Source of the DNA: Bolinopsis microptera
Lineage: Eukaryota; Ctenophora; Tentaculata; Lobata; Bolinopsidae
Direction of reading: 5' to 3'
Length of the DNA: 60,000 nt
Assembly: GCF_026151205.1 (NCBI RefSeq)
Contig: NC_087078.1
Span: forward strand, 5,599,675 to 5,659,674
Made by a program: the position numbers and the translations under genes. Each line of letters starts with the position of its first letter. Within the stretch, counting starts at the first letter, position 1. Under the pieces are notes generated by a model. It did not search any database and had not been told where the DNA came from. It saw nothing but the letters and a program-made list of their open reading frames with translations. Of this stretch, positions 1 to 55,039 are shown piece after piece.

Positions 1-1302
1 TAACGCTATACGCATCAACATTATCAATCGCTATTTTGAAGAATCAGCGATCAAGTCACCTTATTCTAACCCCAGACCCCTGCGAAGCTGGAGAGTATCG
101 AACACAGAGTATGTCAACTTGTGAAGCTTGTCCAGTGAACCAGATCAGTTCATCTGGGGCTGAGAGCTGCACTGAGTGTCCTTCAGGACTAGTTTCAAAT
201 GCAGCAAAGTCAGCTTGTGGTAAGTTCGAAAAAGTATGGTTAAGCTTATAAGATTGTTGATCAATTAACTTATTGGATTTGTACAAAATTAACACTATAA
301 TACGCACAACCTCAAACCTGTATCAGCATACTGTCTAAATTATGCTTTTAATTCTTGCACCTTTAAAAGAAACTATGAGAATTCTAAATAAAAGAATAAT
401 ATTTTGACCCTCGAAACTAAACTTTTTCAGATGTTTGCCCTGCTGGAACATACAGAACCGAAGGAATGGAGACATGTGATCCCTGTTTAGAAGGTGCTAT
501 CAGCACAGCTGGGTCTGCAATGTGTACTCCCTGTCTAGTGGGGACTCAGGCGAATATAGCAAAAACTGAATGTGGTGAGTTCGAAAAAGTATGGTAAAAC
601 TTATCAGATTATTGATCAATAAACTTAATGGATTTGTATTTTGTACAAAATTAACGCTATACGCATCAACATTATCAATCGCTATTTTCAAGAATCAGCG
701 ATCAAGTCACCTTATTCTAACCCCAGACCCCTGCGAAGCTGGAGAGTATCGAACACAGAGTATGTCAACTTGTGAAGCTTGTCCAGTAAACCAGATCAGT
801 TCACCTGGAGCTGAGAGCTGCACTGAGTGTCCTTCAGGACTAGTTTCAAATGCAGCAAAGTCAGCTTGTGGTAAGTTCAAAAAAGTATGGTAAAACTTAT
901 AAGATTATTGATCAATTAACTTATTGGATTTGTACAAAATTAACACTATAATACGCACAACCTCAAATCTGTATCAGCATACTGTCTAAAATATCCTTTT
1001 AATTCTTGCACCTTTAAAAGAAACCATGAGAATTCTAAATAAAAGAATAATATTTTGACCCTCGAAAGTAAACTTTTTCAGATGTTTGCCCTGCTGGAAC
1101 ATACAGAACTGAAGGAATGGAGACATGTGATCCCTGTTTAGACGGTACTATCAGTGCAGCTGGGTCTACAAATTGTGCTGCTTGTTCAGTGGGGACTCAG
1201 GCGAATATAGCAAAGACTCTATGTGGTAAGTTCAAAAAAGTATGGTAAAACTTATTAGATTATCGATTAATGAACTTAACCAAATTTCGATAAAAATCGC
1301 TA
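1..1302 (+). repeat. 651-bp tandem duplication carrying two GCC2_GCC3 exons
   Basis: The sequence from position 1 recurs from 652 at a constant offset of 651. Exon 76-219 corresponds to 727-870 and exon 431-574 to 1082-1225, with introns also matching closely to about 1270-1300. The few substitutions, in introns as well as exons, point to a recent event. The first halves of successive introns (after 219, 574, 870 and 1225) also resemble one another, so an older one-exon duplication probably preceded this one. Confidence 0.9.
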
Positions 1303-1518
1303 CTAGTAATAGTTATAGTATAGTACTACTACTACAATTCTTTCCAGTGCCGTTCTGTGAAGGTCCGAACATCGCAAACAGTAAAACATACGGTAGAGTC
1401 ACAGAGGAAACAGAGATCAAGATACGGTGCGTGGCCGGTTTTGCTGTGATTGGTCGGGAAATAATCACGTGTCAAGCGAACGGGGAGTATTCAGATGAGC
1501 CGACATGCAAAATTATGG
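76..1518 (+). CDS. Gene A: 3' part of a secreted GCC2_GCC3/sushi modular protein
   Basis: Five exons at 76-219, 431-574, 727-870, 1082-1225 and 1348-1518, each bounded by AG/GT and each starting and ending in phase 1. The first four are 144 nt and encode Cys-rich repeats of the kind CPAGTYRTEGMETC...C..C, matching the ephrin-receptor-like GCC2_GCC3 family. The last (57 codons) is a sushi/CCP domain with four cysteines in the contexts FC, IRC, ITC and PTC. The 5' exons lie left of the window. After 1518 a good GTAAG donor suggests further exons, but none was found. If unspliced, the frame stops at 1559-1561 and an AATAAA lies at 1585-1590, so this could also be the terminal exon. Domain families are recognised from pattern. 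Function (extracellular binding or recognition) is inferred from domain content only. Confidence 0.8.
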
Positions 1519-3729
1519 GTAAGACAAGCGCCATTAATACTGATAAAATTATGTTTCAGTGAACTAGGCTTTGTTAGCGATTCTAATAAAAATACCTTTT
1601 TCACTCTGAATCAATTTTAGTAACTAAATTGAACGAACAGTTCATGGAACCATGCAATATAAAGTTAGGGCTATCTATTGTATGGTTTACGTGTAACTAA
1701 ATTATATTCCTCCGAAAATACTTAGTAATAGTTCGAATGTATCACACAAGCTAACAAATAAAATATTTCCGACACTCCCACGACGAGACAAATAATGCTA
1801 AAGAAGTGGAACTCACAGTTTGGAACAGAGTGGATGTTGTTGCAACCTCTACAGCAACAATAACAACATGCCTCTCTGTTAGAATCAGACTTTCTTAATA
1901 ATATCATAGTGTTGTGCTGAAGAACGCAATGTGGTCACTGGTCAGTGGTCACATGACCATTAACGAGAAGACACTTTAGCATGAAACATCACCTTTCTGG
2001 GAACTCTTAAAATATGAGCTAAATTAGAGAGTCGTGATTTTATAAAATATTTATTTGAATTTTAACAATACGTAATGAATTAAATGTGCTTTGTATCTGG
2101 GTAGCTGATATTAATCTTCTGATAATAATATGTTCAATGTAATAATATACGATTTTATGAAGATTTTTGGAGATTTGCGTTCATATTTTCCACCTATAAA
2201 CTATATTATATAAGTCCCGATAAGAGGCGTGAGTACCCAGATGACTATTTAGACTTCATGCAAGCAGTTAATACCATTAGTATACGATGCAGTTTTCCCG
2301 TTTAAACGTTGAGGAAGAGTCAAGAGTTGGTCTTAGCAGCAGCTCATATTTAGACATTGGGGAAGAGTTGGTCTGTTAGGAGCTTATGTCTATTTATCAT
2401 CAGTGAAACCTAGATTTTTGAATATGCAAAGGACCTGTAGGCGGATTGTCATTGACCCTTTCCTCCCCCTCCTTTAGAATTTCATTAGTCAGTCCGAACT
2501 CTACCATAAGATGAGTTTATGATGAGCGTTGGCTGACGTTGATCATGTAGACAATATGAAAACGACGAGGAGACCTGCTTGTGACTCACGAGCTGGTCGC
2601 TCCGTCGTTTTCATTTCTATATGATAGGATAAGTCCAGCATTAGTCATGATATTCGCAGTTATAACGACTTACTCGACTTAGCGCGGCTTCAACGTCCGA
2701 ACAGAGATAGTTTTTTTCCAAATCTTTCTATCCAGCATGAGTTTGTTAATCTCCTTGCTGTCGTCAAGCCCCGTGTCCTTATAACGCAGTTATAATATAC
2801 CATTATAGAGCTTCAACCGTGGTTACTTCTCACTTTTTCGAGATTCTTACGCTCGCAAACCATCGCAGCAAAGATTGTTTATTTGGGAGTAAAGTAGTGT
2901 AACTGGTCGATCATATCGAAGGCTATTAATTCAATATTTTCTGTGAATAGGCAAGTCAGCTATAAGTTACATTAAACCGCTTTCATGTTAATGTTATTTA
3001 TGGTTATGGATAGGAACCGGCCGGCTTTAATATTCACTATCCAGTTCAGATTCCTGTCCAGTTTCCAAGAATTTGGCCGGATATTCAATTGTCGGGGTCT
3101 CGTATCCCGATTCTTGAGTCAGATCTCGAATTTCCCGATTCCAAAAATCAGATCGCGAGTTCTCGTATCCGAATTGAAAACTGTTCGGGACTAGGAAAAA
3201 TTATTTCGAGAAAAGTTTCTAAAAACAATTTTATGACATTTAATAATATCCAGATATCTTCAGAAATAAACATAGTGGTTAATTAACTTGAAACTACATT
3301 TAACATGTCATGTTAAAAGATGATCTGCAACCGGACAAACATTGCTCTCCTTTTCATAACAAAGATGACCTGTGCTCTAACCGCCTCAACTACTTCCTGT
3401 TAAGCAAACTCCCACGATTATCTAATGAATACCATTAAAGTATTTTAGGAAACTGTAACGGCCACAGCACTGTTAAATACAGTGTACCTTAGTTTTATTT
3501 TTATTTTGTAGGTGTTATTGTTTGCCACTAGAAATGTGAGGAGCAATTCTTAAATTCTATTTCGATTCGGTGACTTGTAACAATGTGACACCCTAGTCGC
3601 AGTTTTTGTTGTTGCTTTGGCTTTGATTATACATATTGTACAGTGTACACAAACCATTACAATTTTCTTGGATTTATAAAGTTTTGTTTAAAATTGATCT
3701 TCCTAGAAAAGCGTACGAATATTCGTGTA
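1519..3729. other. Intergenic stretch between genes A and B
   Basis: No convincing coding exon on either strand. The first ~250 bases are homologous to the sequence after gene C (from 13,319), showing the duplication included 3' flank. A hairpin lies at 2544-2623. The stretch 3010-3190 has several near-repeats of CCCGATTC and short ORFs without family resemblance. Confidence 0.6.
2544..2623. repeat. Imperfect hairpin
   Basis: ATGAAAACGACG at 2556-2567 pairs with its exact reverse complement at 2603-2614. Partial pairing continues inward (GACC with GGTC) and outward over about 10 more bases. The loop is short. It could be a small MITE relic or a precursor-like hairpin RNA. Confidence 0.5.
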
Positions 3730-6700
3730 ATGTTTGTGTGGCAAGCAGTTCTGCTGTTGTGTGACTGTTTTGCAGTCGGGATATCAACAGGTAAGGGACC
3801 AGAATTAATTCGATTCACCGTTAAAATTAATGAAAATTCCGGAGAATGGTTGCTTCTGTGTAATTAAGGTTACTTTGAGGGGGGGGGGGGGCTTACTTAC
3901 TTCAAAATGTTAGCGCAATTTCTACAGAGTCATTCTATTGAGGGTTAGTACTTCGCAAGATCATTAAACTTCTTCAGATTTCAGAAGCATAAAAGACTCT
4001 CAATAAACTTGTAATCTACATTTCAGTCGAATCAGGTCAAGAACTGATTGTCGACAGATCGGAATCATTCAATCATTATAACAGTTATGTAGCGGCTAAT
4101 GCACATGACGGGGACTACAATACTCAATACAGTGTTAAAGATGGTGAAGTGGCTGGAAACTTTCTGAAGTTGTATCTCTCGCAGCAGTACAATATCGGAA
4201 AGGTTAAGATGACCGTGAGAAGCGACTGCTGTAAAGAGAGAATTGTGAATACAGAGGTGTTCGTTTATTCAACTTTGCAAGGAGAGCAAATGGTCATGAG
4301 CTGCGGTAAAATTACCGGTGAGCAAATAATTTAGGAGATACTTTTATTTAGGTTTTTTAACCAAGCATTTGAATGCTTTTACTTTCTCAATTTGTTTGGA
4401 TTAGTATTGTTTTATGGCCCGTAGTATGCTCTAGGAATAAGAAGCATCCCATCATTTTTATACAAATGTGTATTATTATCGCAGAGGAGAGAACCCCTGG
4501 TAACACAGAGAACGATATTGAGGGACGGACATATACTCTGGACTGTGATGGGTCGATAGGAGATATGGTGTATTTGACAGACACAGATTACAAACTTGCT
4601 GAAGGCCACAATTTTGTGGAAGTTAAGATTTATGGTCTTGGTAAGCGATACATCATAAATAAATAAATAAGGTACATAAAAGCTTAAATATACTAGCAGA
4701 AACCCGTGTTTGTCAAGATAAAACAATATTTATTTATTTGTGATTTTGACACCACTTGGGGTTCCAAATTTCAACCAAAAAAGTGTCGATGGTATAGATA
4801 CGGTTTTCGTGAAAAGTTGCTTTAAAGTTGATGTCAGTAAAATGGTAACAGCCATAATATATTATATCGTCTCGCTTTATATATAGTAAGATTTGCATCC
4901 TGTTTTCAAGCTAACAATAACTGTACTACTTTCAATCAGAGTCAACACACAGTGAACACAGCCATTTCTTCATCTCGTAAATTTAGTGATAGCTAATTTA
5001 GTTATAATTGAGAACAAGATAGTCGCTCATACAAAATATCATCTGTTTCAGAGCTTTGTCCTGCTGGAAGTTACAACGGAGAAGGGACATGTGGTCCCTG
5101 TGCAGACGGTACTATCAGTACAGCTGGGTCTAGAGAGTGTTCTGACTGTCTAATGGGGACTCAGGCGAATACAGCAAATACTGTATGTGGTGAGTATTTT
5201 TGAAATATTCCTGCAATTCATAACTTGGAGTGCCAAAACTTGTTTGATATTTACATTTTACCTGCCATAAACTAAGAAATAAATAACCATGTTCCAGAGC
5301 CTTGTGAAGATGGACAGTACAGAAGTTGGGACATGACTAAATGTGCTACATGTGAGGACGGGTTTGTACCAAACTCTGATAAATCTGCTTGTGGTGAGTC
5401 AGAAATATTCAAAATATTCAAGGATTTTATGATTTATCGGTCGGAGAGTTCTATTTTTGCATCAATTATATATGTTCAATAAATCACAAGGATTTAGGAT
5501 TCACATCGTCAAGTCCAATGACCCCAACACGGGACAGCCATGCTGTTAGTTGAGTTGCCATGGTACTTTGATTATAAATTTGCAGTTGCAATATCATCTC
5601 AATGAAGCATTAAATATCAAATTAAATATATTTTCTAGAGCACAAGTCATGCACAACCAATATGGTTGACTTTTGTGATAGCCTGGCATTGTCTCTTAAC
5701 GAAAACATTATCAATCATGTTGTGTATTTTGATTTTGCTAAGGCATTTGATTCTGTAAATCATGATATCCTTCTTCATAAGCTAAAGACCTTATATAACA
5801 TTGATGGTACACTTCTCAAATTTCTTACCAATTACCTTCAAGGCCGTTACCAAAGAGTGGTTATTGGTAATGAGATGTCATCTACCCTCTCAGTTAATTC
5901 TGGTGTCCCCCAGGGCTCTATTCTTGGTCCCTTACTTTTTGTATTGTTTATCAATGATATTCCTCTTGGCCTTTCGGATAATACTGATATTGTTTTGTAT
6001 GCCGATGATACAAAAATCTGGCGTAAAATACATTCATCTTCTGATAATACTAATTTACAAATGGATATAGACTATCTCTCTGACTGGGCACTAAGAAACA
6101 AAATGCGATTCCATCCAGCAAAATGTAAAGTGCTTATTGTTTCAGGAAAACCATCTTTATCTCCTCCATTCGCATATAATCTTGATGGCTCTCCTCTTGT
6201 GTATGTAGAGTTAGAAAAAGATCTTGGAGTCGATGTTACTCCTAAGTTAAGTTGGAATAGTCAGTGCGACAGAATTTATACTAAGGCCTGCCAACAACTT
6301 GGTATGGTCAGAAGAGATGGCCATATTGTCATTGATCAGAAACGTCGCCGGGCGCTTTACCTCTCCCTGGTTCGTAGCCAATTCGAGAATTGTTCCATAA
6401 TCTGGCGCCCTTGTAATAAATCACTTAGTGATAAATTAGAAAGTCTCCAAAAGAGAGCTATTAAATGGATTCTGTCTGAAGAGGGCCGCAGTTATCCACC
6501 TGAGCAATATGTCAAAAAGTGCAAGCTTGTCGACATTCTCCCTTTGTCTCAAAAGTTTGACTTGAATGATCTTATTTTTTTCCACAAAGTTCTTAACAAT
6601 TTAATTCCTGTATCGCTGCCTCACTATCTCTCTCTATATCAGGGCACTTCTCGACTAAGACGTTGCCACCTCGACAGTCTGTCTATTGTGTCATCAATTT

Positions 6701-8508
6701 TACCTAAGTTAAGTCAGAATTCACACACCACATGTACCTCAAATAGCCCACTGGCAAAATCATTTTTCTACAGAACCCATATACTGTGGAATGGACTCCC
6801 TTTACAGGTAAGACAGATTGTGTCTACTAGTATTTTCAAAGCTGAGGTCACTAAGCATCTATGGAAATGTTTATTGGATAGTGAAACAACAGTCTAGCCT
6901 AGTCTCTTTGCTCCCCATATTATTATTATTTTTGTTTTATTAATTTTTTTATCTACCTTCCTATACTTTCAACATCATATCACACTTCACCCGCACACCT
7001 TCTCACACATTAATGACCATTTCAGACCTGTATCTAATGTATCTGGAATTTGACGTATTGAAATACCAATTTTGACTCTATATCCACAGTTATTCACCAT
7101 GGATTTGTTTGTTCTTAAATAGTTTTTCATAAATTTTTGGATTTAGATTAATTCGATGTAATGGGTCCAAGTTACTGCGGACATAGTTCACTATGTGTTT
7201 AGTGTTTACCGTGTTTGGGTGCCCATCATATTTTACAGATGGGGGCGATATTTTGAACGATTCTATTTTATATTCATCTATTGCTGTACTCTGTAAAATT
7301 TGAAAAGTATTTAATAAAAATAAAAAAAAATATCTATTGTATACAATCTTCAGATGCGTGCAACGAAGGAACGTACAGGAGCGCAGGAATGGTAAATTGT
7401 GCGAGCTGTGATGTTGGAAAAATACCAAACTCTGATAAAACTGCTTGTGGTGAGTTACTTATTCAGTGCAGAAGAATATTTTCTTTTCATAAATTTATAT
7501 TTAGTGATAGCTCATACAATTGACATAATATATCAGAATCTGTTTCAATTTGAGTTAATATATTCATCCAGCTTAATATTAAGAGTCGTTGTGAAAACAA
7601 TCAACAACCCAATCAACCTTCTTCTAACCCCAGTCACCTGCGAAGCTGGAAAGTATCGAACACAGAGTATGTCAACATGTGACGTTTGTCCAGTGAACAA
7701 GTACAGTTCACAACCTGGGTCAGCAAACTGTTTAAGCTGCCAACTAGGACAAGTTTCAAACACAGACAGGACTTCTTGTGGTGAGAAACTTTTTCATTTT
7801 GTTTTTTAACAATAGTCCATCTTTTGTTACTTGCTTCTCATTTAAAAAATAAAGAAAACAGTGATACTGAATTATTCAACTGTTTTCAAAATTTCCGTAA
7901 ATTAATATTATTTCAGTCTCAGAAGTTTGCTCTGCTGGAACACACAAGAGCTCAGGAATGGAGACATGTGATCCTTGTTTAGACAATACTATCAGTGCAG
8001 CTGGGTCTAGAGAGTGTTTTGATTGTCAGAAAGGTACCCAGGCGAATACAGCAAAGACTGTATGTGGTGAGTATTTTTCCTGCAATTCATAACTTGGAGT
8101 GCCAAAACTTGTTTGATATTTACATTTTACCTGCCATAAACTAAAACATAAATATAGTTTCAAATGCAGCAAAGTCAGCTTGTGGTGATTGGATTTTCAA
8201 AAATTGGAACAAACCCAGACGATGATTAGATTAAGGAACTGTTAAATTTATCGTCTTTATAACAATTTTGTTAATTCATCTATTTTAAATTATCAAAAAG
8301 TATGTACATAGTTCAACTGTACGATTATTATTTTCAGAATTGTTTTGTGAAGGGCCTACGATTGCAAACAGTCAAACTGAGGGTAAAGCCACAGCGGGAG
8401 CATGGATAAAGATACGGTGTCAGGCAGGCTTTGCTGTGATTGGTCAGGAAATAATCACCTGTCAGGCGAACGGGGAGTATTCTGATAAGCCCACGTGCAA
8501 AAAAATAG
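3730..8508 (+). CDS. Gene B: secreted F5/8C-like + GCC2_GCC3 + sushi protein
   Basis: Nine exons, all junctions in phase 1: signal peptide 3730-3790 (starts MFVWQAVLLLCDCFAVG); galactose-binding-like fold 4027-4317 and 4485-4640 (AANAHDG...NTQYS, then LDCDG, ending EVKIYG, as in fucolectin/F5-8C domains); GCC2_GCC3 modules 5052-5189, 5298-5393 (half module), 7354-7449 (half module), 7634-7780 and 7917-8066; sushi 8338-8508. They sum to 1306 nt, about 435 residues. An in-frame ATG exists upstream at 3643, but 3730 gives a clean signal peptide. No membrane segment is seen. If the last donor is not used, the frame stops at 8544-8546. Compared with gene C it lacks the 148-codon domain and the first sushi exon. 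The intron 5394-7353 carries a LINE insertion. Role inferred: a secreted binding or recognition protein. Confidence 0.82.
5638..7332 (+). mobile_element. 5'-truncated non-LTR retrotransposon (LINE) in intron of gene B
   Basis: Homology starts abruptly near 5638, in the HKSCTT motif that precedes reverse-transcriptase motif A, so the endonuclease and N-terminal part are missing. The RT ORF ends at 6895. An A-rich 3' end (AATAAAAATAAAAAAAAA) is at about 7312-7330. The insertion ends only about 23 bases before the next splice acceptor (7351-7353). A clear target-site duplication was not found. Confidence 0.8.
5662..6897 (+). CDS. Reverse transcriptase, C-terminal part (LINE ORF2 fragment)
   Basis: 411 codons, uninterrupted. 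Palm motifs in order: A FDFAKAFDSVNHD (residues ~24-36), B GVPQGSILGPLLF (~80-92), C YADDT (~112-116). The thumb and C-terminal region ends in a Jockey/CR1-type segment (IIWRPCNKSLSDKLE). The two catalytic aspartates of YADD and the motif A aspartate are present. The open frame of a truncated copy suggests a young insertion. The true protein would start upstream, so the ATG at 5662 is an internal methionine. Exact LINE clade not settled. Confidence 0.88.
   Translation: MVDFCDSLALSLNENIINHVVYFDFAKAFDSVNHDILLHKLKTLYNIDGTLLKFLTNYLQGRYQRVVIGNEMSSTLSVNSGVPQGSILGPLLFVLFINDIPLGLSDNTDIVLYADDTKIWRKIHSSSDNTNLQMDIDYLSDWALRNKMRFHPAKCKVLIVSGKPSLSPPFAYNLDGSPLVYVELEKDLGVDVTPKLSWNSQCDRIYTKACQQLGMVRRDGHIVIDQKRRRALYLSLVRSQFENCSIIWRPCNKSLSDKLESLQKRAIKWILSEEGRSYPPEQYVKKCKLVDILPLSQKFDLNDLIFFHKVLNNLIPVSLPHYLSLYQGTSRLRRCHLDSLSIVSSILPKLSQNSHTTCTSNSPLAKSFFYRTHILWNGLPLQVRQIVSTSIFKAEVTKHLWKCLLDSETTV
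8153..8184 (+). pseudogene. Relic 3' end of a GCC2_GCC3 exon
   Basis: About 30 bases match the last ten codons of the exons ending at 219 and 870 (…SNAAKSACG), followed by a degraded donor (GTGATT instead of GTAAG/GTGAG). No acceptor or exon body precedes it. It lies in the intron before the last sushi exon of gene B and looks like a lost repeat module. Confidence 0.7.
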
Positions 8509-10216
8509 GTAAGATATTATTAGAACTGGTAGAACTGAATTTGTGACATAAACAGACAAGATATTTCATGAAAACGGTGCAATAGCAAGTTTAGGCTATA
8601 ACTAGTTATTGTATTTGTTAGATCTTGACAATGACCACACTAAATGTAACTGTGACACACAGTTTCGACCGATCAACTTATCAACTTGCTCTTATGATGA
8701 TAACTGAAAAGAGTAGAGAAAGAATATTGAACCGAAGCTAAGATTGGAGTACTCTTTATATCAGTGTTAATTACGAGCTCTCTCAGGTCGCATAATATGA
8801 TTGAATAACAACTAACAAGGTATAATAGGTAGGCCTAAGAGAGAACTAAATTTTCTTAACAATGATTACTATAATATTAAATTTGTAACAGTATAATAAT
8901 TTATCAATCAGTAGTTTTTTCAAATCCTTGAATATTTCGATCATTAATATCATAACTTTTTCCAACTGACCAGAAGGGCAGTAAATTTAGCAAACCCCCT
9001 GGCAATTTCCTTCAACTTTAAACTTCCTCTTTTGAACACACGGTTCTGGTCCTGAAACTCCTTGCTCACAAAGGAAGGAGTCAAAGCAGGAAGCCAGACC
9101 AATGACAAAACAATACTTCAATCATGAGCATTGCAAGCGGAGGGTTCCTGTTTTATTGTGGCAAGCAAAAGAGTTGCTAACTCCCGTCCCTTCTTATACC
9201 AAGGATAATGAAGCAATGGCCATTATCGACCCCACGAACTTGTGAGAACTGGGTTTTTTGGTATTATATCTAAAACAATCTCTACATTTGGGCGTTGCGA
9301 ATCGTAGTGAATTCTTGAAATGTACGCCATGCTGGCTGCCATCTTGGCTGCGAGGGTCTATGATCTTACGATCGATCATCTGTTTGTCCAGAGTAGAGTA
9401 CCATAATGGCAATTCCAGTTTATCATAACAGTGGAGCACAGAAACCGGGCCTCCAGCTCCCATCCCTGTCTGCTCATTAGGGAATCTTCGTTTATACGCA
9501 AATGACCTGTATTCCCTAATTTCCTTCACCCTCTTTAAAGACCCTGCCCACTGTTAGCATCCCCATCACTTCAAAGAGATGCAAATTGCAGGGACTAGTA
9601 TGCTCGCTACTAGTTGAGGCCTCACAACCCTCCATACCCTAGTGCTTGGTCCACGAGATTCTATTTTCTTATTTTAGACCTCCCTTCTTTATCTACCTAG
9701 TGGAAATAATATTAAATCTTTAACTAATTACCGATGTTGTATGCAATTCGGCAATTCCACCTTAGATGACAAATATTTGTCAAACAATTGCAATTTTCGA
9801 TCCTTCTTTGTTGTATGATTACAGGAAATTTATGATTTTTTTCTTGTTAATTGAACTAGATGTTACAATGTGTACTGTGTAGTTATTGACTACTGAATGC
9901 TATAATATGATGCTATAGATCTGTAGTTGTAACACTGCAGCATACGTAGTCGCTACTGTCACAAAATTCAGCAGTGTCTTGATTCAGTGTGACATGAAAT
10001 TAAAGTCAGTGCCCACTTGGTGGTCCGATCAATGTCATTAGAGTATTAAACAGAGGCTTTACTGTAACATATCCAGTATTCACTATCCAGGTCCTCAGTT
10101 AACTCATTAACTGTGTTAATCTTATTAATTGTAGTTTCCAGCTCTGCACAAGTTTTTTTTCTTCAAAAATCAAATATTTTCACCAGCGGTAATCAATATC
10201 ATGTATTAAGGTACCT
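8509..10216. other. Region between genes B and C, possible decayed element
   Basis: No exon of the modular family was found. On the minus strand, 8940-9530 has unusually long open stretches in different frames and looks like decayed protein-coding repeat, but I recognise no family. The remainder is AT-rich with nothing noted. Confidence 0.4.
9194..9529 (-). pseudogene. Unrecognised open stretch, possibly decayed mobile-element ORF
   Basis: 111 codons open on the minus strand, with a C-x2-C pair near residue 80 (PKCRDC) and basic composition. Further open stretch continues downstream on the minus strand to about 8940 in another frame (contains FKRGSLKLKEIARGF). No splice sites or neighbours support a host gene. 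I do not recognise it. Confidence 0.25.
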
Positions 10217-13200
10217 ATGGTTTCGTTGGTACTTATAGTACCTACAGTACTGTTGGTATGTCAATTGATTGGTCACGGAAGATCACAAGCACAGCTTGAA
10301 GGTAAAGTAGTTTAAGCCGGTTTGTTTACTGTTCATTTTATCTACTTAACAGGAAGCAGTATGGATTTGTTTGTCAATGTTATAATGCAAATGACCGGAT
10401 TTGCAGCCTGAAGGCTAGATCACCGAAATGTAGAAATGCTTAAGATAGTAGGTAACATTTTTTGAACGATCTCTTAAATTTGTTCACATTAATTTTATTT
10501 AAACTTTCTTCAGGATCATCCCAAGAACTGACTATCGTAAGATCGGAATCATTCAACCATCATGGCAACTATATAGCGGCTAATGCATATGACGGGAACA
10601 ACAATACTCAATACAGTGTTAAAGATAATGAAGTGGCTGGAAACTTTCTGAAGTTGTATCTCTCACAGAAAAACAATATCGGACAAGTTAAGATGACGAG
10701 TAGAAAAGGTGAGACGATGTCGGAAAGAATGATTAATACGGAGGTGTCAGTTTATTCAACGGACGCTATTGATGTTCCAGTCGCAACCTGTGGAACAATA
10801 ACCGGTAAGGATATTCGAAGATAATTATAATCGATTGCTTCTTTTAAATTTCCACTTAGGAACTGATGATACTGAATTTTTCCTCCAGCAAGTATAATAA
10901 TATACGATCGATAGGATGAACAAATAACCTAGAGACTTCATTCAGATATCAACACTGGCGACTATCAAGATTTCAAAGATCTGACATACACTTTGGACTG
11001 TGATGGTGCGCTTGGGGACATGCTGTATCTGACAGATCTGGATTACGATTCAAATGCGGGACACAACATAGCTGAAGTAAAGATATATGGATCAGGTACT
11101 TAAAAACATAAATAATAATAATAATAATAACTAAAAATTTATACATCGCTTTATATATAGCAAAAAAGAACTAAAAATCCAAGATTCAGTTCAAGCCATC
11201 TAAAGCGACTCATGAACATGAGAAAGATATTATTTTTCACTTATGGATGAATACTTTTTCAAAGAGATGAGTCTTAAGTCTCTTTTTAAACAAGACAATA
11301 TCGGTCAATGTTCTCAATTGATAAGGAAGCTGATTCCAAACGGAGGGTCCGCAGTAACTACAACTTCTCTCAGTTTTACTATAATTTGAGACAGGAGGAA
11401 TATTGAACAGTAAACAGAACTGATAATCTGTTATCTGTTATGTTAACTTATCAATATAATATAATAAAGGTATAAAATGGGTACAAAAATAATCATCATT
11501 ATATTCAAGGGGATGGCACACGAATTAAGATACAGTTACTTAACCAAATAAATTATAAATAAGTGCACATACTCAATTAATGAGACCAATACTTTCTTGA
11601 ACTGCAATTGAAGGGTTCAAGAATGTTTTCTAAATCATCGTATTGGTTTTTTCTGTAATACTCTGCACCTTGAAATATTTATGAATTTCACAACCTGATC
11701 TATTTCAGCTTGGATAGCAGTACAACCCATTGTTGGAAAGAAACTCCATATTGATCTGGTCACAACACCTCTTGAGATACGAACAGACGTAGGACTCGAC
11801 AGTAGCACAAACATTAACGTGCTGTTCTTTGATGGAGAGGATGGAGAAGCAGGAAGCATTGATATTGCGTTTTTCAACACTGTAAAGTACAAGTTGGGAC
11901 ACTGCATGGCTAGTTTTGAATATTTCCCAAACCAAATAGAAGTGACTGGAGATGATGTTTGGAAAATCAGCAAGCAAGAAAAGGTCTTCAATATTTTATG
12001 TAATGGACAGGATGTTTTGCAAGTGACATTGAGTGACAGCGTTTGTGACAATATTTACCTGACATGGACAAACTACTGGACAAAGGATATAGCGAAAGTG
12101 CAATTTGCTGCAATCAACCAGATTGCTTCTAAGTTCTATTCACCACCAAGACGTAAGTTAGAGTGAAACTTATTTAATTTTCTAACAATCTCTTGGAAAC
12201 AAGGATTAGTAGGATTTTGATATACATCCTTCAATAAAATGTGCCAAATTCTGAACATGACAGAAAACACCCGACCTAGCATCTAACCAAGCCTTATTAT
12301 TAACTAAAATCGTAAAATGTTTTCAGACTGCACTGGCGTGAACCCTCCCCTGATAAGTAGGACTGGTTTCCCGATCCTACGAGGAGAAGTTGCAACAGTT
12401 TCATGTGCGGCTGGTTCCATTCTGAGTGGAAATAGTGTGATAACGTGCAGACATCAAAACATATTCACTAAAGATAACGAAGTAATCAACACATCATGCA
12501 GTGAGTATAAAGGGCCTAAATTATGAATTGATTGCTTTGAATGATCATTATATTATAATGCTTCAACATCATGAACTTTTTAAGCACAAGAATAAGCAGT
12601 CAAGTCACCATTATTTTTATATCCAGACCCCTGTGAACCTGGAAAATATGGAACAGAGGGTGCGTTAGCATGCGAAGTTTGTCCAGTAAACAAATATAGT
12701 TCAAAACCTGGGTCAGCATACTGTTCAACCTGCTTACTAGGACAAGTTTCAAACACAGACAGGACTTCTTGTGGTGAGAAACTTTTTTATTCTGTTTTTT
12801 TAACAATAGTCCATCTTTTGTTACTTGCTTCTAATTTAAAAAATAAAGATAAACACAGTGATACTTAATTATTCACCTGTTTTCAAAATTTACATTTCTG
12901 TAAATTAATATTATTTCAGATGTTTGCCCTGCTGGAACATACAGAACGGAAGGAATGGAGACATGTGCTCCCTGTTTAGACAATACTATCAGTGCAGCTG
13001 GGTCTAAAAATTGTGTTGCTTGTCAGAAGTGGTCCCAGGCGAATACAGCAAAGACTGAATGTGGTAAGTTCCTAGAATTTATGATAAACCCATCAATCAA
13101 TGAAATTGGTCAAATTTGAACAAATGCGCTACGGTAATTCTTTCCAGTGTATTTTTGTGATGATCCAAAGATTGAAAACAGTCGCACTTACGAAAGGGTG

Positions 13201-13318
13201 ACAGAAGGAACAGAGATAAAGATTTGGTGTCAGAAAGGCTTTGCTGTGATTGGTCAGCAAATAATCACGTGTCAAGCGAACGGGGTGTTCTCAGATTACC
13301 CCACGTGCAAAAAAACAA
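10217..13318 (+). CDS. Gene C: secreted F5/8C-like + novel domain + sushi + GCC2_GCC3 + sushi protein
   Basis: Eight phase-1 exons: signal peptide 10217-10301 (begins MVSLVLIVPTVLLVCQLIG); galactose-binding-like fold 10514-10804 and 10946-11095; a 148-codon domain 11709-12152; divergent sushi 12327-12500; GCC2_GCC3 12627-12773 and 12920-13063; sushi 13148-13318. They sum to 1606 nt, about 535 residues. All internal exons are multiples of 3 with AG/GT borders. The first fold exon is exactly the length of its gene B counterpart (291 nt) and closely similar. No membrane span is seen. If the last donor is skipped, translation stops at 13,399-13,401. Sequence after 13,318 is homologous to that after gene A (1519 on), which marks these as tandem copies. 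Role inferred: secreted recognition or adhesion. Confidence 0.83.
11709..12152 (+). other. Single-exon 148-codon domain of gene C (family uncertain)
   Basis: This exon encodes a beta-rich stretch with a conserved-looking end: VWKIS..., LCNGQDVL, a Cys in SDSVCD, then TNYWTKDIAKVQF and an aliphatic/Ser tail. Two Cys (NILCNG and DSVCD) may pair; a third is in GHCMASF. The pattern W-x-I...CNG..VL...C...W...I.F recalls an extracellular domain seen in invertebrate multidomain proteins and, weakly, the farnesoic-acid O-methyltransferase-like family. I cannot name it with certainty. It is absent from gene B. Confidence 0.6.
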
Positions 13319-13664
13319 GTAAGACAAGCGCCATTAATACTGTTGACATATTGGTTTTAAAAGGGATTCTAATGGTCATCAACATGACGTATTGCAACTA
13401 AATTGAACGAACAGTTCATGGAACCATGCAACAGAAAGTTAGGGCTATCTATTGTATGGTTTACGTGTAACTAAATTATATTCCAAATAAGTAGTAATAA
13501 TGTATTTAACGAATACATTACACAAACTCACTAATCAACTATTCCCAACTTTACCATTCCCACAACGACAAAAAGTGGTGGACAGGATTTTGTGGTGAGC
13601 CGAGATTACTACCAATTTGTTTGTTTAACTGTCTATCTTGAGATATAAGCTACTATGTTTAGCT

Positions 13665-15281
13665 GGTTCTTTTGCGATAGTCAAAACGCGACAACTAGCG
13701 CTGGATGGCGACAACTAGCGCTATCCAGCGCTAGTTGTCGCCATCCAGCGCTAGTTGTCGCTATCCAGCGCTGGATAACGCTGGCCAGCGCAAAATATAT
13801 ATGTTCGATAATTGTCGCTATCCAGCGCTAGTTGTCGCCATCCAGCGCTAGTTGTCGCCATCCAGCGCTAGTTGTCGCTATCCAGCGCTAGTTGTCGCTG
13901 GCTATGCGACACTGTCGCACGGCCAGCGCAACTGGCCATCGCAGAAAACAGTTCGATAACTAGCGCTGGATAGCGACAACTAGCGCTGGATAGCGGACAA
14001 ACTAGCGCTGGCCATCGATATCCAGCGCAAAATTTTTGCGCTATTACTCGTCAGCCAGCGCTGGCCAGCGCTAGCCAACGCTAGCCAGCGCTAACCATCG
14101 CTAGCCAGCGCTAACCAGCGCTAGTTGTCGCTAACCAGCGCTAGCCAGCGCTAACCAGCACTAGCCAGCGCTGGCCAGCGCTAGTTGTCGCTAACCAGCG
14201 CTAGCCAGCGCTAACCAGCGCTAGCCAGCGCAATGTATCAAAATCATATACTTGCGATATTAGTCGGATGATGATTAATCACTTTACACTCGACTGTCAC
14301 GTGACTTTTTTAACCCATTCTCTGACTCTAGAGGTTCTGAACGACTTTTCGAAACCTTAACCCTCTTAATCTGATCCCAACCCTAATGCTAACCCTAACC
14401 CAATCTTAACAAAACATATGCTGAAACTCTAATAATAACGAGAAATTAGGACTAACTTCCTTATACGTCATATCACGTGATCGATACCATGTACAGTTTT
14501 TCGACAATATCTCGTCAGGAGCTAGAGCATTTTAACCATATGTAATGGGCCCATTGGGGTTGATTCGAAATTAGCGTCGAAAATACATCGATTGAAGTTG
14601 GTTACAACCATCGGGGGCCCTTTTATGTTTTAGAACAATCTCGAAGATCGACTGTAGAGTGAATTAGCACGCTTGATATATTAGTATTACTCGTCAGCCA
14701 GCGCTGGCCAGCGCAATATAGTTGCGATATTACTCGTCAGCTAGCGCTGGCCAGCGCTGGCTAGCGCTGGTTAGCGCTGGCTAGCGATGGTTAGCGCTGG
14801 CTAGCGCTGGCCAGCGCTGGCCAGCGCTAGCTGATGAGTAATAGCGCAAAAATTTTGCGCTGGATATCGATGGCCAGCGCTGGCCAGTGCTGGCTATCGC
14901 TTAGCGCTGGCCAGCGCTGGCCAGCGCTAGTTGTCGCTATCCAGCGCTAGTTGTCGCTATCCAGCGCTAGTTATCGAACTGTTTTCTGCGATGGCCAGTT
15001 GCGCTGGCCATCGCAAACTATCGCGTGCGACAGTGTCGCATAGCCAGCGACAACTAGCGCTGGATAGCGAACCACTAGCGCTGGATGGCGACAACTAGCG
15101 CTGGATGGCGACAAAAGCGCTGGATAGCGACAATTATCGAACATATATATTTTGCGCTGGCCCAGCGTTATCCAGCGCTGGATAGCGAAAACTAGCGCTG
15201 GATGGCGACAACTAGCGCTGGATAGCGCTAGTTGTCGCCATCCAGCGCTAGTTGTCGCGTTTTGACTATCGCAAAAGAACC
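13665..15281. mobile_element. TIR/foldback DNA element filled with AGCGCT repeats
   Basis: Ends are inverted copies: GGTTCTTTTGCGATAGTC at 13665 and its complement ending at 15281. Both are flanked by the direct repeat TGTTTAGCT (13656-13664 and 15282-15290), a 9-bp (or 8 + chance) target-site duplication. Both arms (to ~14,230 and from ~14,690) consist of irregular arrays of CCAGCGCTAG, TTGTCG and variants, AGCGCT itself being palindromic. The ~460-bp centre is ordinary sequence. There is no transposase, so it is non-autonomous. TSD length would suit Mutator-like (9) or hAT-like (8) families. Confidence 0.88.
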
Positions 15282-16709: not shown

Positions 16710-17657
16710 TTGTATTTGCACTGTTTTTTAGCTCGCTTATCAGTGATCGTTATCAGTGAAAGTGTTACTCGCCACGTCGACTTTCAACAGCGCCGACTGT
16801 GTAGCATGGATTTTTCAGTGGACCGGCTCAACGCGATGGACCATGAGATGACATCAGAACTTCAGAAAATATTCAAGGTTGCCAATGTTTCATGTAGATC
16901 TGACTTTACTGAGACCGCTTTAATGAAACTTAACAAAAATCCACTCGTCAAAATCATCGGCAGCTTAATGAAATTGGCGGAGAAGAATATTGAACTTTGT
17001 AAAAGTGCTGCTGGGAAAATTGATGTCATGAAATCGGAGAAAATAGCGGATCAGAAACTAATTATTGAAACTCAACAAGGACAGATGAATTCAGTTCAGG
17101 AGACAGTTAAATCAGAAATGAAAAGTTGGACGGATGTTGTCAAGAAAAACACTGCTCAGCGTCCTAGCGGGAAACCTTTAACAGAAAACTCTATCAAACA
17201 AGCCGTAAGGACTGTAAATGAAGAGAAGAAACGATCGAAGTACTTGATGATCTACGGTTGCCATGAAAGTGATAAAGAAGCCGATTTTGAGCTCAACAAA
17301 GTTGTCAAGGACATACTTTACGGAACTGACGCTTTCCCCGTGCTCCGCACTGGTGAGGTCTACAGAATCGGAAGGAAGGAACCGGGTAAGAATAGGCCTA
17401 TCAAGGTCGAATTTGGTTGTGCCAGTGAGGTAGACTTGATTTTGATGCGTGCACGAAACCTCAGAGACAGTGACGTTTTCAAACATGTTTATTTGGGACC
17501 GGACAGAACCAAAGAGGAACAGCTTGCGCATAGTAAACTTGTTAAGGAGATGAAACAGATGATCCAGAAAGACTCAAATAAACATTATTTCATACGGGAC
17601 AGAAAGATCTGCACGGCTGATAAAACCTTATCATCTCAAACGTCCCAAAGCTCCTGA
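16710..17657 (+). CDS. Non-LTR retrotransposon ORF1-type protein
   Basis: Open for 315 codons. A better start may be the ATG at 16,807 (MDFSVDRLNAMDHEM), since the first 32 residues look like upstream read-through. Residues ~70-140 are charged with heptad-like spacing (probable coiled coil). Residues ~180-300 resemble the RRM-like nucleic-acid-binding segment of LINE ORF1 proteins: YRIGRKEPGKNRPIKVEF, then VYLGPDRTKEEQLAHSKLV, then HYFIRDRKI. The expected role is RNA binding in a retrotransposon particle. No ORF2 follows, so this is a non-autonomous or internally deleted copy, or a domesticated ORF1. Confidence 0.75.
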   Translation: MYLHCFLARLSVIVISESVTRHVDFQQRRLCSMDFSVDRLNAMDHEMTSELQKIFKVANVSCRSDFTETALMKLNKNPLVKIIGSLMKLAEKNIELCKSAAGKIDVMKSEKIADQKLIIETQQGQMNSVQETVKSEMKSWTDVVKKNTAQRPSGKPLTENSIKQAVRTVNEEKKRSKYLMIYGCHESDKEADFELNKVVKDILYGTDAFPVLRTGEVYRIGRKEPGKNRPIKVEFGCASEVDLILMRARNLRDSDVFKHVYLGPDRTKEEQLAHSKLVKEMKQMIQKDSNKHYFIRDRKICTADKTLSSQTSQSS

Positions 17658-18237: not shown

Positions 18238-43460
<25,223 letters not shown>

Positions 43461-49400: not shown

Positions 49401-49810
49401 ACTAAAACATTCTTTAGTTTATATTGTGTAGTTCGAAGATATAAAATGCAGCTTAAAGTTGGATATTGGAGAGCTGGCGAAAGATTATGGCCTTTGTATC
49501 AATGGTTATAATAAGCTATAAATATCTTAAACTATACAGTGCTAATTAAAAATTTCTTTAAACTTCATTCTCAAATTAGATTTTTTAAATTCAAAAGTAA
49601 ATATACAATAATTTTATTAAAACTTTCTCACACATACTTTACTCACAGGACAAGACTTGGAAAACAGTAGCCTAGGGTAATTTTAATTGAGATGTGTGTG
49701 ACCAGCCAGTTATAATGTTTGGGAAATAAGATTTGCGCAGTCAAAATCTTTGACAGTCCAATCAAGAAGGGCGTGATTATGTTGATTCGTTAATAGCGCA
49801 CGTTTTAGCT
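46451..49810. other. No gene seen
   Basis: AT-rich. Contains a GGTTAGGGTT-type patch at 46,465-46,530, a three-copy AGGATTAAAC repeat at ~48,330-48,361 and only short unrelated ORFs. Confidence 0.5.
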
Positions 49811-49943
49811 TACCTCGCATCGCCGATGTGGACTTTGCAGATGATATAGCACTTATATCTGAGGACATGGACAAGGCTAACGAGTTCCTGCTCAGAGTAG
49901 AATCGGCGGCAGCAAGCGTGGGACTACACATAAACGAAGGCAA

Positions 49944-50047
49944 GACCAAGGTCATGACACTGAATATGGAGGATCGATCTAGCGACCTAGGTCATGACCA
50001 AGGTCATGACACTGAATATGGAGGATCGATCTAGCGACCTACAAAGT
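49944..50047. repeat. 52-bp tandem duplication inside the LINE
   Basis: The unit beginning GACCAAGGTCATGACACTGA at 49,944 starts again at 49,996. 52 is not a multiple of 3, so the duplication breaks the RT frame. Confidence 0.9.
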
Positions 50048-50533
50048 CGATCCGGGGAAGCCATAGAAAATGTAGATGATTTCATCTACTTAGGCTCCTG
50101 GATTGAGAGCACAGATAGGGAGATAAGGGTTAGAAAGGGAAAAGCGTGGGGTGCCCTACATAGACTGAAGGATATCTGGAAATCCAAACTCTCAAAGAGC
50201 CTAAAGATTAGATTGTTCATAGCGGCTTGTGAATCAGTACTGCTCTACGGATCAGAAGCCTGGACACTGACAAAGGCTCAAGAGAAAAGTTTGGACGGGA
50301 CATACACAAAGATGTTGCGTATGGTGCTGGGTATCTCATGGAAGGACAAGGTCAGCAATATAACTTTGTATGGTAGCCTCCCAAGGCTGTCAAACAAGTT
50401 ACGAAGCAGGAGATTAAAAATGGCGGGACACTGCATCCGACATCCTGAGCTACTTGCCAGTGATTTAGTCTTATGGGAACCTACGCACGGTAGAGCACAG
50501 CAAGGCCGACCAAGACAAAGCTACTTGTCTATG

Positions 50534-50906
50534 TTTTTTTTTTTTTTTATCTCAAGTCTTATTTTACTTCGGACATTCCAACAGCCACATTGTTACACAA
50601 GTGTGTAACCAGCCAATTACAGGAAGCCGAAGGATTCAATTATACATTAGGCCAGTGACGGTTAAGGTAGTGTGTACCATACTTTCTTCGCCCGAGACTT
50701 TGCTGCAATGGGCAGCTCCTCATTTAACCCTCACACCCGATTTCTCGAGTATTTGGCTGAGTGGACCGGGGGGCTGCATAGACCACTCAGGATCCTTAGC
50801 TGAGCGTCGACGACGCTCACCCCACGGCTAGTGGCAGAGTCGGGAATCGAACCTGGTACCTCAAGCAATACCAGGCCCTGGATTAACCAACTGAGCCACT
50901 AAGCCG
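50534..50906 (-). mobile_element. tRNA-derived SINE (minus orientation)
   Basis: On the minus strand the head reads CGGCTTAGTGGCTCAGTTGG (A-box-like TGGCTCAGTTGG) and further on GGTTCGATTCC (a perfect B box). The tail is poly(A), seen as T's at 50,534-50,549. It splits the RTE-like ORF between codons …YLSM and LLKEV. No obvious target-site duplication. Confidence 0.88.
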
Positions 50907-53533: not shown

Positions 53534-54299
53534 CTAAAACAAGAAAGAAATCATGAGAATTTGTTTGATCTCTGCTGAGCACTAAAATACATATGTATGT
53601 GATAATATAGTATACAAAGTGTGGTGTCTCAAGAATCAACATGAAGGGTTTCACTGTACGCTACTTGTCATCAACTTTAAGTGTCGGAACTTCTAGACAA
53701 TACCACACAAATTGTTGCTTGGAGTAGTTATTATAGCGGGTCATTAGAGGTGGCTAATAGGTCAAATATATGTTTTACGATATTTTATTGCACTGTACCA
53801 CATCTCTATTGATACAATGCTAGTGGTCAACAAATACAATGTGGTTATTCTCAGAATAACATATAAAGGAGAAGATATGTTCCCCATATACGGTCGATGG
53901 GGATTTGGACCCATTTATATCACCTTATAGTCTGAATACATACGTCATACACCCTCAGTAATACATTCGCTAACTTAGTTATTTGTTATATCTTTTTTAT
54001 AATATATGTATGTTATAACATATTATAACACTTATTATATATATAAGACGTGTTCAAAATATTTAAACCATACTTACATTACAGTATTATTACCGCCTTA
54101 CTGGTCATATTATTACCTTCTTTTACACACTCGTATTATTTATGCTCGGTATTTTATTTGTTCCTGTTACTTATTTTGTTGTTTTTACTAACTTTAAGAG
54201 AACAAAAATGGAAATATTGAAGTTAAAAAGACCATGTTTACCACAAAAGTTCTGTAAAAAAGTTTTGTTAATTTTTTATATTAATTAACAATATTACCA

Positions 54300-55039
54300 G
54301 TGCATTAGAGATTATGCTAGTAGTCAGTAAAAAAAATGAAGGTTTATCATTGGAGACACTCGATGGGGATTGGGACCCATTCAAATCAAAAACTAAGTAC
54401 ATGGGAATCAACATAAGAGATGATGATAACCCGACTCTGGTTGCTGGGAGTGGGAAGAACATTGAGAAAGTCGATGACTTCGTATATTTGGGTAGTAGAA
54501 TGAAGAGTTCGGAGAAGGACTTCGAAGTGAGGAAAGCTAAGGCATGGGGAGCGTGTCACCAGATGAAGCTTGTATGGAAGTCGGATATGTGTAGAGATCT
54601 CAAGATACGACTGTTCCTGGCTACAGTCGAGTCCATCCTTCTATATGGCTCTGAAACATGGACTGTCAGCCAGACCCTCGCAAAACGTATTGATGGATGT
54701 TATACGAGAATGCTGAGGATGGCACTGAACATTGACTGGAAAGAGCGGCAGACTAACGCCAAGGTGTATGGGCACCTCATCAGAGCATCTGATAAGATAG
54801 CTGCACGGAGGATGAGACTCGCAGGTCATTTAGCCAGACATGAAGAACTATTGAGTCATCAACTACACTTCTGGGAACCCCTTCAAGGACATCGTCGAAG
54901 GGGAAGACCACATCTCACATACATTGACATCCTTCGAAAGGACACGGGGCTTGATGACAGCAAAGAGATTAACAAACTCATGCTGGATAGAAAGATTTGG
55001 AAGAAGACTATTTCTGTTCGGACGCTGAAGCCGCCCTAA
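54300..55039 (+). pseudogene. RTE-like LINE 3' fragment (5'-truncated)
   Basis: Open for 241 codons from 54,314. Contains KVDDFVYLGSRMKSS, LLYGSETWTV, RRMRLAGHLARHEELLSHQL, GRPHLTYIDILRKDTGLDD and LMLDRKIWKK: the same tail as the copy at 49,820 but diverged, so a different subfamily. Reverse-transcriptase motifs are missing. A short piece of related sequence (TCGATGGGGATT…GGACCCATT) also stands at ~53,897-53,920. Confidence 0.82.

Follow-up and report, generated by a model that had tools for sequence, protein, structure and literature searches.

A three-gene array of modular, predicted secreted proteins in the ctenophore Bolinopsis microptera, with exon modules apparently in flux through phase-1 introns

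A window of 60,000 nucleotides of the Bolinopsis microptera genome (contig NC_087078.1, here C7; C7:5599675-5659674; positions given without a contig are those of the window) carries at 1-13401 three adjacent plus-strand genes, A, B and C, built from F5/8C-type, GCC and sushi modules. Modules in this array, whose units, mosaic divergence and deletion scar can be followed within one 18-kb stretch, have been duplicated, lost and homogenised in frame, and recently. On balance we favour the explanation that the genes form a ctenophore array of secreted modular proteins, with modules in flux via phase-1 introns and a surface-binding, adhesive or opsonin-like role. Under this explanation the F5/8C-type head would bind glycans or surfaces, a stalk of 9, 5 or 2 GCC modules would set reach or valency, and the sushi module would form a cap. 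The phase 1-1 exons would be duplicated, deleted and homogenised in frame by unequal crossing-over and by gene conversion via their phase-1 introns, and the secreted products would serve in adhesion, mucus or matrix, or else as opsonin-like lectins. The array clearly exemplifies a construction principle already known for animal proteins, and nothing so far points to an immune or self-recognition locus. Exon shuffling can be read here while it is still under way, in the ctenophores, a group placed sister to other animals in one paper (PMC10232365).

Architecture of the array and phase of its exons

Exon models were built from splice sites and reading frames, and the genome searched for relatives comprised 264.65 Mb in 232 contigs, 13 of them large (C1-C13) and together holding 97.5% of the bases. 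An earlier, sequence-only reading of the window had described three neighbouring plus-strand genes with F5/8C-like, sushi and GCC modules, and this is borne out by the exon models and domain scans. The genes have a common plan of signal peptide, F5/8C-type domain spread over two exons, cysteine-rich GCC exons (GCC2_GCC3, Pfam Ephrin_rec_like; nine in A, five in B, two in C) and a final recognised sushi exon, to which gene C adds an unnamed-domain exon (444 bp) and a CCP-like exon. Several details of the sequence-only reading needed revision: gene A is cut by the window and has nine GCC modules instead of four, the F5/8C domain requires two exons, and the feature list lacked the unnamed domain, a long interspersed nuclear element (LINE) reverse transcriptase and a recombination scar, all given below.

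Gene A as modelled has a signal exon, two F5/8C-type exons, nine GCC exons and one sushi exon (623 residues, 60 cysteines). It starts with the signal exon at C7:5595794-5595854, 3,881 bp upstream of the window, and ends at 1518; a search of the 15.8 kb preceding it gave no array-type module. Its plus-strand exons inside the window are a1 (GCC-I, phase 1-1, 76-219), a2 (GCC-II, 431-574), a3 (GCC-I, a copy of a1, 727-870), a4 (GCC-II, a copy of a2, 1082-1225) and a5 (sushi/CCP, the final recognised exon, 1348-1518), with a donor-like GTAAGA directly 3′ of a5 and a stop 14 codons into read-through. Gene B (435 residues, 36 cysteines), also on the plus strand, consists of b1 (signal peptide, 3730-3790), b2 and b3 (first and second parts of the F5/8C-type domain, 4027-4317 and 4485-4640), b4 (GCC-II, 5052-5189), b5 and b6 (short GCC modules, 5298-5393 and 7354-7449), b7 (GCC-I, 7634-7780), b8 (GCC-II, 7917-8066) and b9 (sushi/CCP, 8338-8508). 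The plus-strand LINE reverse transcriptase open reading frame (5641-6894) lies inside intron b5-b6, which is 1960 bp long, against 257 bp for its counterpart in gene A. Gene C (535 residues, 26 cysteines) has, on the same strand, c1 (signal peptide, 10217-10301), c2 and c3 (first and second F5/8C-type parts, 10514-10804 and 10946-11095), c4 (the unnamed domain, labelled LEC, 11709-12152), c5 (CCP-like by its four-cysteine pattern only, with no Pfam call, 12327-12500), c6 (GCC-I, 12627-12773), c7 (GCC-II, 12920-13063) and c8 (sushi/CCP, 13148-13318). The joined reading frames of all three genes are free of stops, and the modelled exons have canonical splice dinucleotides.

The Pfam scan covered the window part of gene A, whose F5/8C exons lie outside it, and genes B and C as modelled. 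Ephrin_rec_like, ELAPOR1-like and sushi modules were called in all three genes. The GCC modules of gene A matched the Ephrin_rec_like and ELAPOR1-like families at E 1.3e-15 and 3.8e-18, respectively, and the sushi modules scored 24.8, 26.1 and 30.5 bits, above the cut-off of 20.7. The F5/8C assignment is closer to threshold: in gene B, PF22633 (F5_F8_type_C_2) scored 28.4 bits, just above its cut-off of 27.8, and PF00754 scored 25.7, below its cut-off of 28.2, while gene C fell below both cut-offs and its first F5/8C exon is 82% identical to that of gene B over 241 bp. In PDB, the GCC region of gene C is matched by Mst1 and ELAPOR1, and its sushi module by complement receptor 2. In the regions scanned with Pfam there was no ephrin-binding domain or kinase, and the genes, as modelled, do not classify as Eph receptors.

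All internal exons of the models are in phase 1-1, as the sequence-only reading had said of every internal exon. When splice sites were picked blind to phase, with the top-scoring acceptor and donor taken close to each module by our own simple scores, phase 1-1 was obtained for 26 of the 27 array exons and for 44/54 exons of related loci elsewhere in the genome (described below). Copies of roughly eight module types make up the 27 array exons, so their agreement does not amount to 27 independent events. The sole exception in the array is an F5/8C N exon, apparently that of gene A, in whose intron a stronger AG stands at C7:5596047; with the acceptor it has in common with gene B, the N exon of gene A is in phase 1. 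Because the modules lie on phase 1-1 exons, exchange through phase-1 introns leaves the frame intact. With phase-1 flanks, and with module gain and loss among relatives, genes A, B and C are class 1-1 exon-shuffled modular proteins.

Duplication, loss and mosaic divergence of modules

One record of module gain is a tandem duplication of a two-exon unit in gene A (1-1279, plus strand), seen in self-alignment as 1-628 against 652-1279, with 94.4% identity over 628 bp including introns; the intron of the unit is itself 95.7% identical between the copies. For each of the five GCC exons of gene B there is a counterpart in gene A, which has in addition two copies of a GCC-I and GCC-II pair. Introns were also compared between genes A and B, with 96% identity in the signal-exon intron and 73-97% in the alignable pieces of the others. 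The recent duplications and the intron-level similarity of the sequence-only reading were thus both recovered.

Synonymous divergence (dS) between A and B is not uniform along the genes. It is 0.07 in the F5/8C exons, 0.06-0.17 in the first four GCC exons, 0.25 in the fifth and 0.62 in the sushi exon; taken together, the F5/8C exons and GCC exons one to four are at about 0.09, against the 0.62 of the sushi exon (Fisher p 4e-6). Between C and B, the GCC exons (dS 0.25 and 0.14) are younger than the F5/8C pair, for which the pooled value is 0.79 (p 7e-5); both p-values take sites as independent and concern contrasts picked after viewing the profile, and are descriptive. In genes A and B, the 5′ halves are young and the 3′ ends old. 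Moreover, the 3′ flank of gene A aligns with that of gene C (79% over 184 bp) and not with that of gene B.

Loss has left a trace as well. Between exons b8 and b9, on the plus strand at 8077-8186, sequence alignment reveals 78 bp (8077-8154) that are 97.4% identical to the b4-b5 intron and that join, gaplessly, 32 bp identical to the 3′ end of a1/a3. We read this segment as the chimeric scar of a GCC exon lost from gene B, and it retains a possible 27-nt phase 1-1 micro-exon at 8158-8184. The in-frame gain and loss of modules proposed in the sequence-only reading is therefore substantiated by the GCC pair copies in A, the scar in B and the rise in dS between them. Mosaic dS, a duplicated pair and a scar are what unequal crossing-over and conversion would be expected to leave, and these are the likely processes behind the state of the array.

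Selection, secretion and possible function

The ratio of nonsynonymous divergence (dN) to dS, omega, was below one in pooled comparisons, being 0.50 for A vs B (p 0.0016) and 0.46 for A vs C (p 2e-6). It was lowest in the A-B sushi exon (0.27, p 0.0005), and it stayed at 0.52 (p 0.0004) for A-C when the sushi exon was left out. Wider comparisons took in F5/8C exons from the array and related loci together. Among 30 N exons, 65 pairs with dS of 0.02-0.5 had a median omega of 0.55, with 3/65 above one, and among 29 C exons the median over 81 pairs was 0.35, with 4/81 above one; these sets leave out pairs beyond that dS range or too short, the pairs are non-independent, and averages may hide single selected sites. 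Pairwise omega thus gave no indication of diversifying selection in the F5/8C binding domain, and module turnover under overall purifying selection appears to fit better than diversifying selection.

The predicted signal peptides and the exon models suggest that the three proteins are secreted. A crude hydropathy scan downstream of the last sushi exons gave ten hydrophobic candidates, none convincing as a membrane exon. Those of gene A lie at least 1.2 kb downstream, two of them running into the signal exon of gene B, that of gene B runs into the start of gene C, and those of gene C start at least 2.6 kb away; none was accepted.

Some results count against the explanation we favour. Each of the three sushi exons has a good donor (GTAAGA) directly 3′ of it, and the models may therefore lack a further exon, possibly one with a membrane anchor. 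The dS values are based on 18-60 synonymous sites in each exon. When the sushi exon is excluded, A-B omega is 0.64 (p 0.08); in the F5/8C exons it is 0.47, at p 0.13 against one, so that constraint is not clear there; and the GCC modules alone are near neutral (0.71, p 0.25). The GCC-II modules are the least constrained, with omega above one (1.12-1.80) in 5 of 10 pairs, at 30-34 synonymous sites each and with no pair-by-pair test.

Among the alternatives, the one that fares best holds that secretory cells, for instance colloblasts, make these as adhesive or mucus/matrix proteins, and that modules vary for mechanical reasons only. The cysteine-rich stalks of variable length fit it, and colloblast candidate genes of Mnemiopsis, a related ctenophore, are enriched for sushi/SCR, lectin and Ca-EGF terms (PMC6278862). 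We regard this alternative as possible but rather doubtful. A secreted innate-immune lectin may also be compatible with the results.

The sequence-only reading had suggested a fast-evolving recognition locus, immune or allorecognition-like, that is, a polymorphic locus for discrimination of self from non-self, diversified by module shuffling. F5/8C and sushi domains do occur in recognition proteins, and a tandem array, module copy-number differences and mosaic divergence are all present here, as are the five GCC-II pairs with omega above one, which have few synonymous sites. Against it, pooled dN is lower than dS and the GCC modules, taken by themselves, are near neutrality, so the comparison of dN/dS across modules lends the recognition reading no support; nor did the crude downstream scan yield a convincing membrane anchor. 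Fused Mnemiopsis individuals have been reported to integrate, a report that our literature search did not recover. Grafts between Mnemiopsis embryos, which may be kin, are taken up (PMC13391361), and neither allorecognition nor rejection is mentioned in the main text of that paper. We consider a recognition locus improbable: the anatomy in the sequence-only reading was right, and its recognition-locus interpretation was conjecture, not favoured by the tests at hand. Finally, it is very improbable that the array is decaying, with B or C a pseudogene and the scar and LINE insertion as signs of decay, since the LINE in a gene B intron and the broken exon remnant are set against joined exons free of stops and modelled exons with canonical splice dinucleotides in all three genes, and against pooled dN below dS between copies.

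Relatives in the genome, neighbouring sequence and known systems

The three module types of the array differ in how widely their relatives are spread. F5/8C relatives (81 matches of 127 candidates; 41 are on C7, including the eight of the array) are clustered, and their recent copies reach 98.6% identity over 3.7 kb. Eighteen related 10-kb stretches on C7, C10 and C12 contain paired F5/8C exons, often two pairs in tandem, and none of the 18 matched the array GCC or sushi models. F5/8C doublet genes were seen at C7:7000000-7009999, C7:7150000-7159999 and C12:11365000-11374999, with 98% identity in inverted orientation on C7 and 93.5% on C12; as doublets are common to C7 and C12, copies also move between chromosomes. 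The sushi type gave 14 matches of 142 candidates, 11 of them outside the array at 38-51% identity, and we call it private to the array on the strength of that low similarity. The same was considered for the GCC modules and dropped: among the best 150 of 1271 candidates, which were scored, matches outside the array (up to 62% over 39 residues) interleave by E-value with array ones (down to 56%), and GCC modules are thus common in the genome. All F5/8C and sushi matches fall on C1-C13, and no second haplotype of the array was seen among them. Two of 32 glutamate-receptor matches in the genome were compared with PDB, and both had 'ML032222a iGluR', a Mnemiopsis gene number, as best match (E 1.2e-53 and 9.5e-128); the second, 73% identical to it, had 4zdm, another ctenophore protein, next (5.7e-72) and then kainate receptor 2 (5e-27), in keeping with a ctenophore genome. 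COX1 had no match in the assembly, and GH6, a tunicate marker, had none either, although its control also stayed silent.

Gene C's unnamed domain, some 145 residues long and marked by invariant cysteine and tryptophan positions, has at least 150 matches, the best 150 of 336 candidates having been scored. The 149 listed besides that of gene C are spread over C45 and every large contig except C7 (12 of 13). Ten members, c4 included, gave no domain match in Pfam, the two chance-level matches being to phage and viral families and none reaching E < 0.05; a profile of the domain had no PDB match at E up to 1, and a single-sequence AlphaFold run of the gene C domain was uninformative (pLDDT 32). A 1,770-bp probe from C5 with two unnamed-domain exons found copies on at least 11 large contigs as well as C45 among the best 40 of 655 candidates, the longest pieces being about 830 bp and mostly 81-90% identical, non-coding flanks included. 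GCC neighbours were assessed with 47 GCC matches outside the array, short single-exon frames picked from the best 150 of 1271. Sixteen of the 47 lie within 8 kb downstream of an unnamed-domain exon on the same strand, where about 0.2% would be expected by chance, and without one large C12 cluster the figure is 15/26. In one C13 copy the domain exon is followed by three GCC exons.

Since the domain is dispersed elsewhere and has no other listed match on C7, gene C looks like a meeting of the C7 F5/8C family with a dispersed domain family. Tentatively, it may be an undescribed domain that has spread as an exon with its flanking intron DNA to these 150 or more places, often just upstream of GCC exons, and that would thus behave as a mobile exon cassette feeding new secreted modular genes; dispersal may have been by transposon or by ordinary gene duplication. 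If the domain is indeed a dispersing exon cassette, the origin of lineage-specific secreted proteins becomes directly testable.

Directly downstream of gene C, at 13665-15281, lies a large inverted array of CCAGCGCTAG-type short repeats. A STIM-like gene on the minus strand (18240-21290) has a SAM domain closest to STIM2/STIM1 in PDB (E 2e-14) and, by eye, an acid-rich N-terminal part, a hydrophobic stretch on both sides of SAM and then an early stop, with no EF hand by Pfam and no coiled-coil region in the model. Inverted repeats of 965 bp, 99.4% identical, at 28802-29766 and 31969-32932 bound about 4.1 kb and resemble the ends of a recent inverted-repeat element. Frames at 16803-17654, 49786-50605 and 54272-55036 resemble, by eye, LINE ORF1 and reverse-transcriptase C-terminal parts; the first, the only one of the three scanned, gave no Pfam match that convinced. 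Neither Rfam nor tRNA scans produced a hit in the window.

Literature searches found no paper joining GCC2, GCC3, sushi and allorecognition and, in the excerpts covered by a broader search, no named gene family of this kind. One study searched 20 Pfam domains, and in its excerpted text sushi, F5/8C and Ephrin_rec_like are not among them (PMC11797021). Copy-number variation between Mnemiopsis species has been described (PMC13231562), and work on ctenophore Eph receptors has no bearing on the array (PMC6485061).

Several known systems share parts of this design. In ELAPOR1/Eph-type cysteine-rich proteins the likeness lies in the GCC modules, which match PF23091, PF07699 and ELAPOR1 chains in PDB, whereas the array genes have an F5/8C head and a sushi cap, and no kinase, ephrin-binding domain or convincing anchor was found in them. 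The GCC region of gene C has its best PDB match in the mastigoneme-like Mst1 (8tx1, E 1.8e-9), an algal flagellar filament protein of different architecture. Sushi-rich complement regulators and tunicate fester/vCRL1 likewise carry sushi modules in extracellular proteins; in contrast, one sushi module was called per array gene, and the array is known from the gene models of one assembly. There is a parallel in construction with metazoan 1-1 exon-shuffled proteins (Patthy; PMC6335736), which are alike in their symmetric modules, extracellular domains and in-frame duplication and loss. What sets the Bolinopsis array apart from them is that its shuffling is recent and local, with the exchanged units, the mosaic divergence and a deletion scar still visible.

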